Source: Candidatus Hecatella orcuttiae (GTDB lineage Archaea; Thermoproteota; Bathyarchaeia; Hecatellales; Hecatellaceae). From it: a DNA stretch of 64,000 nt. Location: positions 248,001-312,000 of the forward strand of contig MTLY02000002.1 in assembly GCA_002011035.2 (NCBI GenBank), written 5' to 3'. Positions 1 to 10,433 of this stretch are shown one piece after another (the stretch's first letter is position 1; each line of letters starts with the position of its first letter). Made by a program: the position numbers and the translations under genes. The notes under the pieces were generated by a model, which made no database searches, was not told the DNA's origin, and was given only the letters and a program-made list of their open reading frames with translations.

Positions 1-2706
1 AGAGTGGTAGATAAAGGTGGAGATCAGCTGGTTTCCATCCAAAGCCAGATCGGCGACATCAACTCCGAGATCGCGGGCCTTAAGACCACCATATCTTCGG
101 CTCAGACAAATCTCAAAACCCTAGAAGTTATGCGCTTAGAAAAAATGGAGGCGTTGAAGAAACTACGCGAAGATGCAGTCGCTGTTCGGAGAGAACGGGC
201 GAGGCTTATAAGAGCTAGAAATCAGATTCAGGCTCTTCTATCCCAAAAAGAAAAAGCTGCAGAGCAGATTAAAGGCAAAATATGGGAGATAAAAAATTCT
301 CTGGACGAAAACGCTGCTAAACTTTCCAGCTTAGAAGAGGAAACGAGGAAACTGGAATCCGAGCTGGCTCGTCTACACGTGAAAATCAAGGCTGAAAAAG
401 AAAGCGTTAATGTGTTAACAGATCAGCTTCAAGTTTTAAACTCTCGAAAGGCAACCTTCGAAAACCTGCATGAGAGTTTCTCCAGCCGCCTGAAGGAAGT
501 TAATGGACTTAAGCAGAAGGAACAGAAAGGCTACCAAGAAGTATTGGCGGCCATAGAGAGAATTAAAACTCAGAGGGAAATTGCTGAAGCTGAAATCTCC
601 AAGGCTGACAAGATTGCGAAGCGGGCGAGAGTTAATGTGGCTGAGTTTGAATCTCGAAGAAATTTAGCCGACTCAGTACTTTCTGAGGAGAAGGCATTGG
701 CGCACATAGAAGGCCTCGCTGAGTTGAAAGCTCTCTCGGGCGTTCACGGCAGACTGGCTGGGAAAATAAGGATTGCAGCCGGGTACAGAAAAGCGGTGGA
801 AGCCGCTGCGGAAGGCTGGCTTCAAGCCTTGATAGTTGAGAACTTGGAAGTGGTCAGAAGATGCGCGGACAGTTTGAAGAGGGCTAAAATAGGCAGGGTT
901 AAGCTTCTTCCCTTAGCGAGTTTAGAAAAAGTTCGGTCCGTAGGGAAACCGCCTATTGAAGGCATATTGGGCTCAGCGGCTTCTTTTGTGGAATGCGCCA
1001 ACAAGTTTAGACCTGCTGTCAACTTTGTTCTAGGAGACACTCTTGTGGCGGTGGACGGGGAAACAGCCCTCCAAGCTTCGGCGAAAGGCTACAGGGTTGT
1101 AACGGTGGAGGGGGAAGTCTACGAGCCAGGCATACGGCTGGAGGTAGGCTTCTACAGGGAGCCCATAGACCTTTCAGACGTTATCCCCAGCGGGGAAACC
1201 GTTAAAATGCTGAATGAAACTGTAGCCTCTTTTGAACGCCTCCTCAGCAGGAGACAGGCTGACTTGAAGCATCTGAGCGAAGAACTAATCAGGCTGGAGG
1301 GTGAGAAGGTGCTTCGGGAGGATACGATAAAGTTTCTTGAACGGGAGGCCGCGGGCTTAACCCAAAACATGGAAAGAGCTCACAAAAGCATTGTTGAATT
1401 GAATAGGAGAATCAGAAGTTTCACCCATCGACGCGATAAACTTCAAGCTGAAATCGAAGGAGCAGAGGCTAGAGTAGCTCAGATTGAACAGAGGCTGCAT
1501 AAGCTACGGGTTGAGGCAGCGAACATAAGGAAAAAGTTGAAGCCGGAAACCATGACCAAGTTGGAAGGTGAGAACGCTGAGTTGGAGAGTGAAATCAGTG
1601 AATATCACCGTCGACTCAACGAGATTAACAGTCAACTGTCCTCCAACGAGTCCAACCTAGAACACGTATATCTGCCTTCTCTGAAAACAGGGAAGAGAGA
1701 ACTCTCTGGAATAGAGAAAAACATCAGAAAACGAAGAGAGGAAATAGAGGTAGCTAAAAGGAGAATGGAGGAAGCTGAGTCTAAGCTTAAAAGTTTACAG
1801 CGGGAGAAAGAAAACTTTTCAGCAATGATGACTACGAAGAAGGAGGAATACAGGAAATTCGAGGAAGAAATCGAGAATATCAACAAGGAGCTCCAGAGGA
1901 TTGAAAAACGATGCGAGCCCCTCAACGAAGAAATCAACGGACTAAACCAGAGAATTCTCAGACATCAATTGGAACGAGAGCAGATCATCAACGAACTTAA
2001 GAGCCTAGGATACGAGCAGCCCCGGGAAGTAAGTGTAGAGGAAGAGAGAGTTTCTGAAGGGCTGTTTGAAAGTTTTCAAAGGGAACATGATCGCCTCTAT
2101 GGAAGGTTAAACATGAACGCTGCAGCCCTCTATCCAACTCACATGAAAACCTACAAGGAACTTTCCACGAAGATAAACCAGCTGGAGGAGGAAAAGAGAG
2201 AAATATTAACGTTCATGGAGAACGTGGAGAGAGAAAAGAGAGATGCCTTCTTCTCAGCTTTGGAGAAACTTAACCAGAAGTTCTCCGAAACTTTCAGCGC
2301 CATAACAAACGGCAAGGGGTGGATTCAATTGCAGAACCCCGATGAGCCTTTCTCGGAAGGCTTGGACATCATCGTGGAGTTTCCAGGAAAACCTCCTATG
2401 CCTGTGGCTGCGGCCAGCGGCGGGGAGAAATCCGTGGTAGCTGTATGCTACATCTTCGCCCTCCAAAGCCTCACCAAGACTTCTCCCTTCTACATCCTCG
2501 ACGAGATAGACGCTCATCTTGATTCCGTGAATGCTTCAAGGCTGGCCGAACTGCTGGCCAGAGAATCGAAGGAGTCGCAGATGATAGTTATTTCGTTCAA
2601 AGACACTGTGGCTGCTAAGGCGGACAAGATTTTCGGAGTCTACGTGAAAAACGGAATATCATACCTCCACTCTCTCCCTCTGCAAGTGATGGAGGCTGCT
2701 TCATGA
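1..2706 (+). CDS. smc: Chromosome segregation SMC ATPase, 5'-truncated by window start
   Basis: Long coiled coil, SMC hinge (LSGVHGRLAGKIRIAAGYRKAVEAAAEGWLQALIVEN), C-terminal signature ASGGEKSVVAV and Walker B FYILDEIDAHLD; followed by scpA/scpB. Confidence 0.95.
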   Translation, partial: RVVDKGGDQLVSIQSQIGDINSEIAGLKTTISSAQTNLKTLEVMRLEKMEALKKLREDAVAVRRERARLIRARNQIQALLSQKEKAAEQIKGKIWEIKNSLDENAAKLSSLEEETRKLESELARLHVKIKAEKESVNVLTDQLQVLNSRKATFENLHESFSSRLKEVNGLKQKEQKGYQEVLAAIERIKTQREIAEAEISKADKIAKRARVNVAEFESRRNLADSVLSEEKALAHIEGLAELKALSGVHGRLAGKIRIAAGYRKAVEAAAEGWLQALIVENLEVVRRCADSLKRAKIGRVKLLPLASLEKVRSVGKPPIEGILGSAASFVECANKFRPAVNFVLGDTLVAVDGETALQASAKGYRVVTVEGEVYEPGIRLEVGFYREPIDLSDVIPSGETVKMLNETVASFERLLSRRQADLKHLSEELIRLEGEKVLREDTIKFLEREAAGLTQNMERAHKSIVELNRRIRSFTHRRDKLQAEIEGAEARVAQIEQRLHKLRVEAANIRKKLKPETMTKLEGENAELESEISEYHRRLNEINSQLSSNESNLEHVYLPSLKTGKRELSGIEKNIRKRREEIEVAKRRMEEAESKLKSLQREKENFSAMMTTKKEEYRKFEEEIENINKELQRIEKRCEPLNEEINGLNQRILRHQLEREQIINELKSLGYEQPREVSVEEERVSEGLFESFQREHDRLYGRLNMNAAALYPTHMKTYKELSTKINQLEEEKREILTFMENVEREKRDAFFSALEKLNQKFSETFSAITNGKGWIQLQNPDEPFSEGLDIIVEFPGKPPMPVAAASGGEKSVVAVCYIFALQSLTKTSPFYILDEIDAHLDSVNASRLAELLARESKESQMIVISFKDTVAAKADKIFGVYVKNGISYLHSLPLQVMEAAS

Positions 2707-3398
2707 GTTCACGGCCTAGAGAAAAACCTTTCTGGCTCAGGCCGCCTTGGCAGATTCTCTTCGACTTGGCGAAGCTTTACAAGGTTCGCCCATGGGATTT
2801 AAACATAGCTCGCTTGCTGTCCACCTTTCTGAATGAAATGAGGAAGACAGGGTACATCGACTTCGCTGCTTCAGGCACGGCTTTACTGTCCTCCAGCACT
2901 ATTCTCCGTCTTCAGTCGGAAACGATAATGAAGCCTGAAGAGCCTCCTGAAACCCCTGAAGCCAAGCCAATGGAGCCTATTCCTCCTGCGCTTCAGCTGC
3001 CTTTTCGATACGAGTTTACTTCAACAACTTTGGACAATCTTTTAGCGGCTTTGGAGGAAATTTTAAAAATTGAAACCGTAAGAAAAACCATTAAAGTTTC
3101 GCCGATCACTCCTCCTGTGGCTGAGTTTTTCCGAGAATATGAACAGTTTACCATTCAAGAAGATGAGCTGGAAGATTTTTATGTTCAACTTCAGCAAAAG
3201 CTCAAAGGTAAAGCCACTTTACCTTTATCCCAGTTGGTCAAGGGAAAAAACAGGCTTGAAACAGTGCGAATTTTCATGATCCTTCTGTTTCTAGCTTCCC
3301 AAGGCCGGATTGAACTTATTCAGGAAGAGGAATTTGGGGAAATTGAAATAGCCTTAAACTCGGAGCTCAGTGAAGTTGACAGAATCCTCACAACTTAA
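2703..3398 (+). CDS. scpA: Segregation and condensation protein A (kleisin)
   Basis: N-terminal ...LYKVRPWDLNIARLLSTFL...LLSSSTILRLQSE and C-terminal winged helix LFLASQGRIELIQEEEFGEIEI; ATGA overlap with smc. Confidence 0.93.
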   Translation: MSSRPREKPFWLRPPWQILFDLAKLYKVRPWDLNIARLLSTFLNEMRKTGYIDFAASGTALLSSSTILRLQSETIMKPEEPPETPEAKPMEPIPPALQLPFRYEFTSTTLDNLLAALEEILKIETVRKTIKVSPITPPVAEFFREYEQFTIQEDELEDFYVQLQQKLKGKATLPLSQLVKGKNRLETVRIFMILLFLASQGRIELIQEEEFGEIEIALNSELSEVDRILTT

Positions 3399-4017
3399 AG
3401 AACTGGATAAACATCCAGAGAAACTCCTCCTAGAGCCCACGGGGGAGGCTGAGGAGCTTCAAGCCAAAAAAAGGTTGATAGAGGCAGCCCTTTACGTTGC
3501 CGGTTATCCCTTGGAACTTAAAACCCTCTGCTCTGTAGCTCAGATATACTCAAAGAGAAAAGTTCAGGAGCTGGCCCGCAGCCTAGCTGAAGAATACAAA
3601 GCACGGAACGGTTGCTTGGAAATTTTAGAGCTGGAAGACGGAAGATTTGTGATGCAGCTGAAAACCGAGTATGTTCCCCGGGTTAGAAGGCTTTCAATAA
3701 AGCCGCTGTTAACCGAGGGTCCCTTGAGGACCTTGTCTTACATTGCCTATAAGCAGCCTGTGCCCCAAGCTAAGGTTATCGATGTGAGGGGTCCGCAGGC
3801 CTATGAACACATCCATAGACTGCAGGAGATGGGTCTCATCGGCCGGGAAAAGTTTGGAAAGTCCCATTTGCTGAGAACAACCTCGGTCTTCTCCGACTAT
3901 TTCGGTCTGAGTAAAGAGCTGAAGTTGATGAAAAAGCAGCTGGAAGCCATGTTCACCCAAGCTGAAAAGGAGGCGACCAAACGGCGGGAAGAGAAAACCC
4001 CCGCTTCTCAAGGCTAA
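3370..4017 (+). CDS. scpB: Segregation and condensation protein B (KITE)
   Basis: RLIEAALYVAGYPLELKTLC... EGPLRTLSYIAYKQPVPQAKVIDVRGPQAYEHIHRLQEMGLI typical of ScpB; adjacent to scpA. Confidence 0.92.
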   Translation: MKLTESSQLKELDKHPEKLLLEPTGEAEELQAKKRLIEAALYVAGYPLELKTLCSVAQIYSKRKVQELARSLAEEYKARNGCLEILELEDGRFVMQLKTEYVPRVRRLSIKPLLTEGPLRTLSYIAYKQPVPQAKVIDVRGPQAYEHIHRLQEMGLIGREKFGKSHLLRTTSVFSDYFGLSKELKLMKKQLEAMFTQAEKEATKRREEKTPASQG

Positions 4018-6974: not shown

Positions 6975-9047
6975 ATGGGCGAAAGGCTTCCGGAAAGCCT
7001 TCCAAAAGGGGTTGACCTATCCCAGCCCAGAAGGAAGGTGTTCGTCAAAGAGATCGTCTTAGAGAACTTCATGTCCTACGAGTACGCCAAAATACCCCTG
7101 AAAGTTGGCCTCAACGTGGTCTGCGGCCCCAACGGCGCAGGGAAGTCTTCCATCCTCCTCGCCCTCTCCGTGGCGTTGGGCCAAGCCTATACAGAGCGGT
7201 CGAAGCGGCTCAGCGACCTGATAAGGAGGGGAAAGGAAAACGCCCGAGTGACCCTTCTTTTCGACAACTCCCCCGGGAAAGATGGGAGGAGACCCATTCC
7301 CAGCAGCGACTCCGATCTCTTCAGGCTTTCCCGCTATCTTAGGAAAAACGGGGAATACTGGTTTGAAGCGGACTATCGCGGGATTTCCAAAGGAGAACTT
7401 TCTCGGCTGTTGGACTCCTTCGGCATCAACCCCGACAACATGCTCATCATCATGCACCAGAACATGGTGGAGGAGTTCAGCGTTGTCTCCCCCCAGCAGA
7501 AACTCCTCATGGTGGAGGAAGCCGTAGGCTTCCAGCCCTACCGGCAGAGGATCATGGAAGCCCAGCAAAGGCTTATGGGACTTCTCAGCGAAGAAACCTC
7601 CATCGCCAGCCTCCTAGGTAGCGCTGAGCAGACTCTAGCTTACTGGAAAGAGCAATACGACCGGTACCTCCGAAAGAAGGAGCTACTTCAGAAGAAAAGC
7701 CAGTTGGAACGGGAACTGGCTTGGGCGCAAGTGGTTAAGTTGGAGAAATCCCTAGAGGCGGTGATGGAGGAGGAAGAAAGAAAAAGACGTAGGCTCATCC
7801 GAATTCGAGAAAACGCTGAAAAGACGAAGAAAGAGGGGAAAGAGCTCCAGCATGACATCGGTAAACTTCGGTTTGAACGCAACCAAAGCCTCTTCACTCT
7901 CATAGGCTGCGAAAAGGAAAAGGCTGGAAACGAGATCTACACTAAGCTTTCAGGCGAGTTTTCAGAGAGGATGGAAAGTCTTCAAGCCATGCTGGACAGG
8001 TTGGAAAACTCATCGGGAAGGAGCGAGGGAGACGGCTATAGGGCTGTTAGGGAAAAGATGGAGGAGATACAAAGTTGGCTTGAGGAAATTCAAAGCCATT
8101 CCCGAGCTTCCATGGTGAAAATGAAGGAATTGAATTCGAAAATCTCACTCCTCCAAAAAAGTCTGAGTTCCCTAGAACAGGAGTTAGACAGTCTTCAGGA
8201 AATGTACGTGGAGAAAAGGGTTAGGGAGGCTTTGCTGAATTATCAGGGGGAGGAATTAGAAGACCAGCTCCGGCAGTTGGGAAGAGAAGAGGACAGGCTT
8301 AAAGAGGAACTGGAGACTTTAGCCTCCCAAGCTAGGGAAATCGGGCCTAGGGTGGAAACCCACCGGCTTCCCCAAGAAATCAGCGACGAAATCAAAACTC
8401 TAACAGCCCACTTGGTCTCCTTGGCGGATGTTAATCCGGAGACTGAAAAAATCTACCGCAAATATCAGCGGGTATACGAAGAGCTGAAGCAGAAATCTGA
8501 AGTATTAGCGGAAAACAGGGCTAAGATGCTGGAGGAAGTGGATGTCCGGAAAAAGGCTTGGAGAAAAGTTTTGGAAAACTTCCTCGCCGAGCTTAACCAA
8601 ACCTACAGGCAGTTCCTCTCCACCATAGGCGCCCTTGGAAACGTGAAACTGGTCAACGCAGAGGATGTGGAAACCGCAGGCCTAGAGCTCTACGTAGGCT
8701 TCCACGGCACAGCTCCTACCCCCTTAGACGCCTACACCCAGAGCGGAGGAGAACGGACAACAGCCATCATGGCCTTTCTGCTCGCCCTCCAAAGATACGT
8801 GAAGTCTCCTATTAGGGCGGTGGATGAGTTTGATATACACATGGACCCTAGAAATAGGGAGACAGTATCGAAGCTGATAGCGCAGACCGTCGGCGAACAA
8901 GAGCAAGCGCAGTATATAATTATAACGCCCTGGCATCTTCCAATCTTTGACCAAGAAGCTCACCTCATCATCGTTCAGAATGTGGCAGGAAGGTCTGAAG
9001 TTAAAACGGTGAACAGCTCTGAAGCCGGCTCGAAGGTCCAAGGATAA
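6975..9047 (+). CDS. SMC-like ATPase with Smc5-type C-terminal motifs; short, no recognisable hinge or zinc hook
   Basis: Walker A GPNGAGKSS; QSGGERTTAIMAFLLALQRYVKSPIRAVDEFDIHMDPRNRE; QYIIITPWHLP near the C-terminus. ORF opens at 6867 inside truA; ATG at 6975 preferred (~690 aa). Confidence 0.85.
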   Translation: MGERLPESLPKGVDLSQPRRKVFVKEIVLENFMSYEYAKIPLKVGLNVVCGPNGAGKSSILLALSVALGQAYTERSKRLSDLIRRGKENARVTLLFDNSPGKDGRRPIPSSDSDLFRLSRYLRKNGEYWFEADYRGISKGELSRLLDSFGINPDNMLIIMHQNMVEEFSVVSPQQKLLMVEEAVGFQPYRQRIMEAQQRLMGLLSEETSIASLLGSAEQTLAYWKEQYDRYLRKKELLQKKSQLERELAWAQVVKLEKSLEAVMEEEERKRRRLIRIRENAEKTKKEGKELQHDIGKLRFERNQSLFTLIGCEKEKAGNEIYTKLSGEFSERMESLQAMLDRLENSSGRSEGDGYRAVREKMEEIQSWLEEIQSHSRASMVKMKELNSKISLLQKSLSSLEQELDSLQEMYVEKRVREALLNYQGEELEDQLRQLGREEDRLKEELETLASQAREIGPRVETHRLPQEISDEIKTLTAHLVSLADVNPETEKIYRKYQRVYEELKQKSEVLAENRAKMLEEVDVRKKAWRKVLENFLAELNQTYRQFLSTIGALGNVKLVNAEDVETAGLELYVGFHGTAPTPLDAYTQSGGERTTAIMAFLLALQRYVKSPIRAVDEFDIHMDPRNRETVSKLIAQTVGEQEQAQYIIITPWHLPIFDQEAHLIIVQNVAGRSEVKTVNSSEAGSKVQG

Positions 9048-9066: not shown

Positions 9067-9825
9067 GTGATTTCCCTCTGTGAAACGGTAGAGCGGAGGG
9101 GGATCAACCCTTTTGAGGTTGAGGTTAAAGAAGCCCTGAACTCCCTCCGACGGCTTCTCGCAAGTTGGAAGTCCTTCGAAGAGCTCTGCCTAGACGCCCA
9201 AGCCATCAACAACCTCTCCAAGGTCGTTAGGCTTCAAGGGGACTGGATTAAACGCCGATCAGCCCTCCACGGAGTGGACCCTGAGACCGTTGAAGCCCGG
9301 ATAGCGAAGCTGAAGCCCGAAGAGCTAGCCGGAGTCTTCTTAGGAGCATGGCGTCCGCTTGTTAGGCTGGAAAAGCTTTCCTTAGAAAGGTTGAAGGAAG
9401 CCTTCTGCTACTGGAAGGGGCTTCCTCCTCGAGGAGAACGTGGAGAAGATTTTCTCCTCCCTTCCTTGGAGGTTTCTACTTCCATGGATGAGGTTCTGAA
9501 AATGGTTTGGGAAGGGGAAGACTTTGATCAAACTCTTAGGAACTTCTGGGAGGAACTTCGCCTCAAGGCAAAGGAGGGGGGAGGTAAAATCTCCTACTGG
9601 AAGTTTGTGGCGGATGAAAGCTTCGCAAAGCTGGTGGTGAGAGCCTACCTGACCAGCTTTCTGCTCACCTACGGCTACGCCCGGCTGGAGGTGGAACCCT
9701 TAGAGGGGGACATAACCCTTATCCCTAACCCCGAACCGGTCACTAAGAAAAACGTCGGCTCATCGGTGGCCATATCTCTAGACCGTTTTCTCTGGGAAAA
9801 ACTGCGGGAGGAAAAGACATCGTGA
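9067..9825 (+). CDS. Putative divergent kleisin-like partner of the SMC-like ATPase
   Basis: N-term VERRGINPFEVEVKEALNSLRRLL...INNLSKVVRLQGDWI resembles ScpA N-domain; C-term YLTSFLLTYGYARLEVEPLEGDITLIP resembles the ScpA winged helix; 19 nt behind the SMC-like gene. Confidence 0.6.
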   Translation: MISLCETVERRGINPFEVEVKEALNSLRRLLASWKSFEELCLDAQAINNLSKVVRLQGDWIKRRSALHGVDPETVEARIAKLKPEELAGVFLGAWRPLVRLEKLSLERLKEAFCYWKGLPPRGERGEDFLLPSLEVSTSMDEVLKMVWEGEDFDQTLRNFWEELRLKAKEGGGKISYWKFVADESFAKLVVRAYLTSFLLTYGYARLEVEPLEGDITLIPNPEPVTKKNVGSSVAISLDRFLWEKLREEKTS

Positions 9826-10433
9826 CTGAGGAAGAAACCGCCGCGGCCTACGCCAGGAAGCTGAAAAGAGCAGCTCAAATGCTGTTTTTCCAGAGACACC
9901 GTGTTCCGGGCCTCCGAGGCTGGGAGCTGAGGAAATCCCTAGGCAAAGATTACATGAAAGTGGTGGAGCTTCTCAACTTCGAACTAGGGAAACTGGGCCT
10001 TCAGGTTAAAGTCATCCCGGAAACCAGTGAAACCGAGCGTCCGGAGAGGCTTACCGATGAGGAACTGGATAGGGCGAGGTTTTACATCACGCTGGGAGGC
10101 TCGCCTACGGCTACGGAAACCCAGCTGGCAGGATGGAGGATCGATGACCTAGCGGTGCTCGCGGCCTCCTTGGCCTACATCTTGGCAAGACAGGGGAAGG
10201 CTCCGAAAAGCGAGGTGGAGAAGCTTTTGAAGGAGAAGCTTCCCGAATGGAGGGTTAACCTCAGCCTCGACCGCTTCATCAAGATGAAATACTTGTCGTT
10301 GGATGAGAATGGGGTTCTCCGCTTAGACTGGAGGACGAGGGCGGAGGTGGATTTGAAAACATTGTTGGAGTTGCTTCTTACAGAGGAAACAACCTCGGCC
10401 TCCTCGGAGGGAAAAAGCCCTTCAACATCCTAA
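9822..10433 (+). CDS. Putative KITE-family protein (MAGE/Nse3-like tandem winged helix)
   Basis: GTGA overlap with the upstream kleisin-like gene; C-term LDRFIKMKYLSLDENGVLRLDWRTRAEVDLKTLLELL resembles the MAGE WH-B pattern (YLEY..v......Y.FLWGPRA..E..k.kvLefl). Confidence 0.5.
   Translation: MTEEETAAAYARKLKRAAQMLFFQRHRVPGLRGWELRKSLGKDYMKVVELLNFELGKLGLQVKVIPETSETERPERLTDEELDRARFYITLGGSPTATETQLAGWRIDDLAVLAASLAYILARQGKAPKSEVEKLLKEKLPEWRVNLSLDRFIKMKYLSLDENGVLRLDWRTRAEVDLKTLLELLLTEETTSASSEGKSPSTS

Follow-up and report, generated by a model that had tools for sequence, protein, structure and literature searches.

The open reading frame at positions 9822-10433 of the window (the whole 64,000-nucleotide stretch of DNA that was analysed) very probably encodes a KITE, the kleisin-interacting tandem winged-helix subunit of a three-gene archaeal complex of Smc5/6 type. 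The identities of the subunits and the conservation of their operon are supported by sequence and fold. In the window the three genes were found in the order SMC ATPase, kleisin, KITE, all on the plus strand, and a separate, canonical SMC-ScpA-ScpB operon (4-4017 overall) lies ~6 kb upstream of the KITE gene. Because the canonical genes also form an operon here, two complete SMC-kleisin-KITE sets occur within ~10 kb. The features are as follows.

4-2706, plus strand: canonical SMC; its 5′ end lies beyond the window
2703-3398, plus strand: canonical ScpA
3370-4017, plus strand: canonical ScpB
6975-9047, plus strand: short Smc5/6-like SMC ATPase, 690 aa from ATG, without hinge domain and without zinc hook
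9067-9825, plus strand: Nse4-like kleisin, 252 aa as called, whose C-terminal winged helix matches Nse4_C; the true start may be slightly upstream
9822-10433, plus strand: KITE protein, Nse1/Nse3-type tandem winged-helix subunit, 203 aa, GTG start
9828-10094, plus strand: winged helix A of the AlphaFold model (KITE residues 3-91; helices 3-23, 33-40 and 44-56, strands 60-65 and 86-91)
10140-10412, plus strand: winged helix B of the AlphaFold model (KITE residues 107-197; helices 107-122, 129-137 and 142-154, strands 158-160 and 165-168, then two helices)
10329-10346, plus strand: W-R-x-x-x-E motif of KITE (W170, R171, E175), invariant in 44 family members

Fold and family of the KITE protein

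The preliminary description had proposed that this reading frame encodes a MAGE/Nse3-like KITE, and it quoted two segments of the translation, ELRKSLGKDYMKVVELLNFELGKLGLQVKVIPE (residues 35-67) and LSLDRFIKMKYLSLDENGVLRLDWRTRAEVDLKTLLELLL (residues ~147-186). Both are present in the frame, which is not a chance one, as its single-copy homologues and invariant columns show. Of 300 genomes sampled from the phylum, 127 had a KITE homologue, one copy each; single-sequence and profile searches gave identical counts, with zero borderline cases. The invariant columns in an alignment of 44 members included three residues of the quoted motif WRTRAE, namely W170, R171 and E175. A basic residue was present in >75% of the members at 14 positions, a pattern compatible with a putative DNA-contacting surface.

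Structure prediction bore out the claimed tandem winged helices. The AlphaFold model, built from the 44 aligned members, had a mean pLDDT of 91.9 and showed two tandem winged helices at high confidence, with no ligand or oligomerisation domain beside them. The best 6 of 1057 fold matches in PDB were 7dg2 chains C and A, 5hvq chains C and D, 7ymd chain B and 8i13 chain F. All six are Nse1 or Nse3/MAGE chains from Smc5/6 structures (E 1e-5 to 4e-3), so the best match was not an unrelated HTH family; TM-scores (to query) of the fold matches were moderate (0.36-0.56). MukE (0.017) and JetB (0.037) ranked lower. The tandem winged-helix fold is shared with these other, bacterial KITEs; however, they matched clearly more weakly than Nse1/Nse3, and no MukF-, MukB-, JetA- or JetC-like partner accompanies the archaeal protein.

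Pfam scans of the 44 members against 24,736 families gave MAGE (12 members, best 2.8e-4) and Nse1 (10 members, best 1.2e-4) as the two most frequent families, with matches mainly within winged helix B. The KITE of the window itself matched none of MAGE (PF01454), Nse1 (PF07574) and ScpB (PF04079), and no member among the 44 is known to reach the gathering score for MAGE or Nse1. In a genome-wide scan for MAGE, none of 61 relatives' genomes passed the cut-off. The best match there (0.003, in genome G073) was an unrelated winged-helix regulator beside an integrase-like gene, and the scan was rejected as a KITE detector. Because the family matches fall below the Pfam cut-off, and because the MAGE scan also matches such a regulator, the sequence match of KITE is weak when taken alone. 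Searches of NCBIfam and PADLOC returned no identity for KITE or for the kleisin.

The KITE fold of the preliminary description stood; its MAGE specificity did not. We consider it unlikely that the protein is an orthologue of Nse3/MAGE specifically and that Nse1 branched off later or separately. MAGE was the most frequent Pfam match, and WRTRAE resembles the MAGE winged helix B motif as given in the preliminary description; however, Nse1 was nearly as frequent and slightly stronger. When the KITE profile was searched against PDB, Nse1 chains were picked, not MAGE, at values that are not significant (0.74 and 0.91), and the fold matches were divided between Nse1 and Nse3/MAGE chains, which fit about equally. 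MAGE was therefore rejected as the specific identity. Because Nse1 matches as well or better, "Nse1/Nse3-type KITE" is a better name than MAGE protein. The RING-like C-terminal domain of Nse1 is absent: the 203-aa protein stops after winged helix B and has no zinc-binding cysteine pattern. KITE is probably one protein that replaces the Nse1/Nse3 pair.

The kleisin, the SMC ATPase and their operon

A kleisin-like partner had been claimed for KITE, and the upstream gene proved Nse4-like by Pfam, PDB profile and fold matches. Nse4_C was matched by 25 of 40 kleisin members (best 8.6e-8), and neither ScpA nor Rad21 was among the Pfam families listed for the 40; the kleisin of the window matched Nse4_C at 4e-4 (20.9 bits, under the cut-off of 26). 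Against PDB, the kleisin profile found yeast Nse4 (4.8e-6) and EID3 (7.9e-5), with ScpA at only 0.004, and the top two fold matches of the kleisin model were Nse4 chains in Smc5/6. The partnership of the kleisin with KITE is read purely from gene context.

The claim of an Smc5-like ATPase likewise held. The profile of the short SMC matched Smc5 (2.4e-71) and Smc6 (2.9e-67) more strongly than bacterial Smc (2.1e-52). In a head-lobe tree with Rad50 as outgroup, the short archaeal SMCs grouped with yeast Smc5 and Smc6 against the canonical archaeal SMCs; support was moderate (SH-aLRT 85.4, UFBoot 92), the tree contained no Smc1-4, and the only eukaryotic sequences were these two, Smc6 being represented by its N-lobe only. 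When the own genome was searched with the short SMC profile, two SMCs only were found, the short one and the canonical one.

The apex of the short SMC was assessed by length and family scans, not by a structure model. In the short SMC family, 332-454 residues separate the Q-loop region from the signature motif, and Walker A lies roughly 440-560 residues from the signature, vs ~1000-1060 in the phylum's canonical SMCs. This length leaves no room for a hinge. The hinge family was matched by none of 36 short SMC members in the family scan and by 2 of 3 canonical SMCs used as a control; no CxxC zinc hook was found between the heads. The ASRPs (coalescin, Sph) are also short archaeal SMC-superfamily ATPases, and the short SMC gave a partial match to the NCBIfam ASRP model (1.5e-14). 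However, ASRPs mostly have a zinc hook and no consistent flanking genes (PMC9389158), whereas the short SMC lacks CxxC between the heads and its operon with kleisin and KITE is strictly kept.

We compared 40 loci of relatives from ~25 families. The kleisin was upstream of KITE on the same strand in all 40 and adjacent to it in 38. SMC lay just upstream of the kleisin-KITE pair, on the same strand, in 36 loci; it was divergent in one of the remaining loci and outside the stretch in three. The preliminary description had placed KITE relative to the kleisin as ScpB is placed relative to ScpA. This position was found: KITE is directly downstream, and its start codon overlaps the kleisin stop by 4 bp.

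An SMC-type anti-plasmid or anti-phage defence operon, Wadjet- or Lamassu-like, is very unlikely. The SMC did score against LmuB (4e-23) and mad3 (1e-28), as would be the case for SMC-like ATPases in general; JetB appears further down the list of KITE fold matches; and eukaryotic Smc5/6 silences extrachromosomal DNA (PMC12656486). However, kleisin and KITE matched no defence model, the lone kleisin match (Cas12a, 0.02) being noise, and no nuclease or other effector was conserved in the neighbourhood of the 40 loci. A single-copy and widespread gene fits a housekeeping function.

We give hardly any credence to the reading of KITE as a divergent ScpB working for the canonical SMC-ScpA complex. 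The two proteins share the tandem winged-helix architecture and the position after a kleisin, and ScpB was undetected in 10 of 34 KITE-bearing genomes. A true ScpB is nevertheless present besides KITE in the window and in 23 other genomes, and KITE is accompanied by a kleisin and an SMC of its own. When the profiles of the KITE family and of the phylum's ScpB family were compared, the probability was 1.8%. No ScpB entry was among the best 50 of the 1057 fold matches, nor was ScpB among the 25 Pfam families listed for the 44 KITE members. The same scan was run on 24 of the phylum's ScpB proteins as a control; ScpB was matched in all 24, and neither MAGE nor Nse1 was among the 25 Pfam families listed for them. 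The identity of KITE as a ScpB paralogue, already largely refuted, was rejected on the profile probability and these controls. The canonical operon has the same gene order and the same kinds of subunit (SMC, kleisin and tandem winged-helix KITE); however, its subunits belong to separate families at each position. Its kleisin is of ScpA/Rad21 type, not Nse4 (the ScpA of the window matches the Rad21_Rec8 and ScpA families), and its SMC has ~1190 aa and a hinge, in contrast to the short, hinge-free SMC.

Among 61 genomes, 24 had both KITE and ScpB, 10 had KITE only, 10 had ScpB only and 17 had neither. The ten genomes with KITE and without detectable ScpB belong to families f16 and f20 (G004 and G008 are examples). 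These ten genomes argue that both complexes are kept or lost independently. Canonical archaeal SMC complexes have been reported largely without ScpB (PMC7055376).

It is scarcely credible that KITE is a winged-helix DNA-binding regulator co-transcribed with the SMC operon by chance: although some KITE members gave weak MarR or TrmB winged-helix matches, and IclR regulators, covering one domain, appear among the fold matches from rank 8 on, over its full length the protein matches the folds of Nse1 and Nse3 best, the tandem domains carry no ligand or oligomerisation domain, and KITE overlaps the kleisin by 4 bp and is strictly co-conserved with kleisin and SMC across ~25 families.

Proposed mechanism and relation to Smc5/6

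The Nse1/Nse3-type KITE and its two partners may be arranged as follows. Two copies of the short SMC would dimerise through their heads on ATP. The kleisin would attach to one SMC at the neck, through its N-terminal helices, and would cap the head of the other with its C-terminal winged helix. A pair of KITE proteins is predicted to sit on the kleisin linker; it is probably a homodimer, because there is one such gene per genome. This pair would offer a conserved basic surface to DNA, and ATP may gate the clamping of that DNA over the engaged heads, by analogy with eukaryotic Smc5/6. In the eukaryotic complex, the N-terminus of Nse4 is attached to the neck of Smc6 and makes the bridge to the Smc5 head, with Nse1/Nse3 on the Nse4 linker (PMC7297730), and together the subunits make up a clamp that surrounds DNA (PMC9191643). 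Because the arms are short and there is no hinge, the complex is likelier to clamp intermediates of DNA repair or recombination, as a compact device, than to extrude loops with long arms.

Eukaryotic Smc5/6 was the best fold or family match for all three archaeal subunits. Like its Nse1/Nse3(MAGE)-Nse4 module, the archaeal set combines KITE, a kleisin with an Nse4-type C-terminal winged helix and an Smc5/6-type ATPase. It differs in having one KITE gene, without RING, instead of an Nse1-Nse3 heterodimer, and one SMC gene instead of two, with neither long arms nor a hinge in the SMC; the archaeal operon showed no recognisable Nse2, Nse5 or Nse6.

The KITE superfamily, Smc5/6 and an Smc5/6-related archaeal SMC were already known (PMC7055376, PMC7297730, PMC9389158). 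The last of these groups with Smc5 and Smc6 in trees, as summarised in PMC9389158, and the short SMC described here is probably a protein of that kind; the summary in that source describes the SMC alone and makes no mention of kleisin and KITE partners. Our search of the open-access literature turned up no description of an archaeal Nse4-like kleisin or Nse1/Nse3-like KITE next to an Smc5/6-like SMC; subscription papers and preprints were mostly outside this search, which does not establish priority. What appears new here is an Smc5/6-type complex cut to three genes and hinge-free.

The operon suggests that archaea already possessed the core of eukaryotic Smc5/6, as a small version without a hinge. 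We give about even chances to a fuller scenario, in which the entire eukaryotic core would have this archaeal operon as its sister or its ancestor. All three subunits, SMC, kleisin and KITE, would have been inherited jointly from archaea; KITE would later have been duplicated to yield Nse1 and Nse3 (hence MAGE), and SMC to yield Smc5 and Smc6; the short hingeless version would have been kept, or would have evolved, in these archaea. If this is true, the hinge is dispensable for a machine of Smc5/6 type. Where Smc5/6 and its KITE subunits, and with them MAGE, came from is unsettled, and previously an Smc5/6-like SMC was all that had been noted in archaea (PMC9389158); with a complete archaeal three-subunit set, this origin becomes directly testable. 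It also raises the question of whether an Smc5/6-type machine can work hinge-free, and it offers structural work on DNA clamping by Smc5/6 a minimal system of three genes, probably homodimeric.

Neighbouring genes

A gene for an Lhr-type DEAD-box helicase was convergent just downstream of KITE in 19 of the 40 loci, from 9 families (for example L064:6678-9575, minus strand); in the window, no Lhr-type helicase was found downstream of KITE. A role of the complex in DNA repair is suggested by this adjacency, that is, only by context.

Apparent inteins were observed in the canonical SMC genes of two relatives (L104:796-4755 and L111:751-4659, both minus strand). Each gene is split inside Walker A, where GPNGSGKC or GRNGSGKC is followed by unrelated sequence.

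A gene of ~230 aa was divergent upstream of SMC, or nearby, in 13 of the 40 loci, from 11 families (L047:6818-7498, L032:2835-3542, L043:2904-3590 and ten other loci). The own genome (G000) carries a member on the same contig, outside the window (C2:32324-33004). This family gave no PDB match, no NCBIfam identity and no usable Pfam match. Over 121 genomes, 56 had both the ~230-aa gene and KITE, 3 had KITE only, 5 had the ~230-aa gene only and 57 had neither (Fisher p = 1e-24, a statistic that ignores shared ancestry). The ~230-aa protein is a possible candidate for a fourth component or a regulator of the complex.
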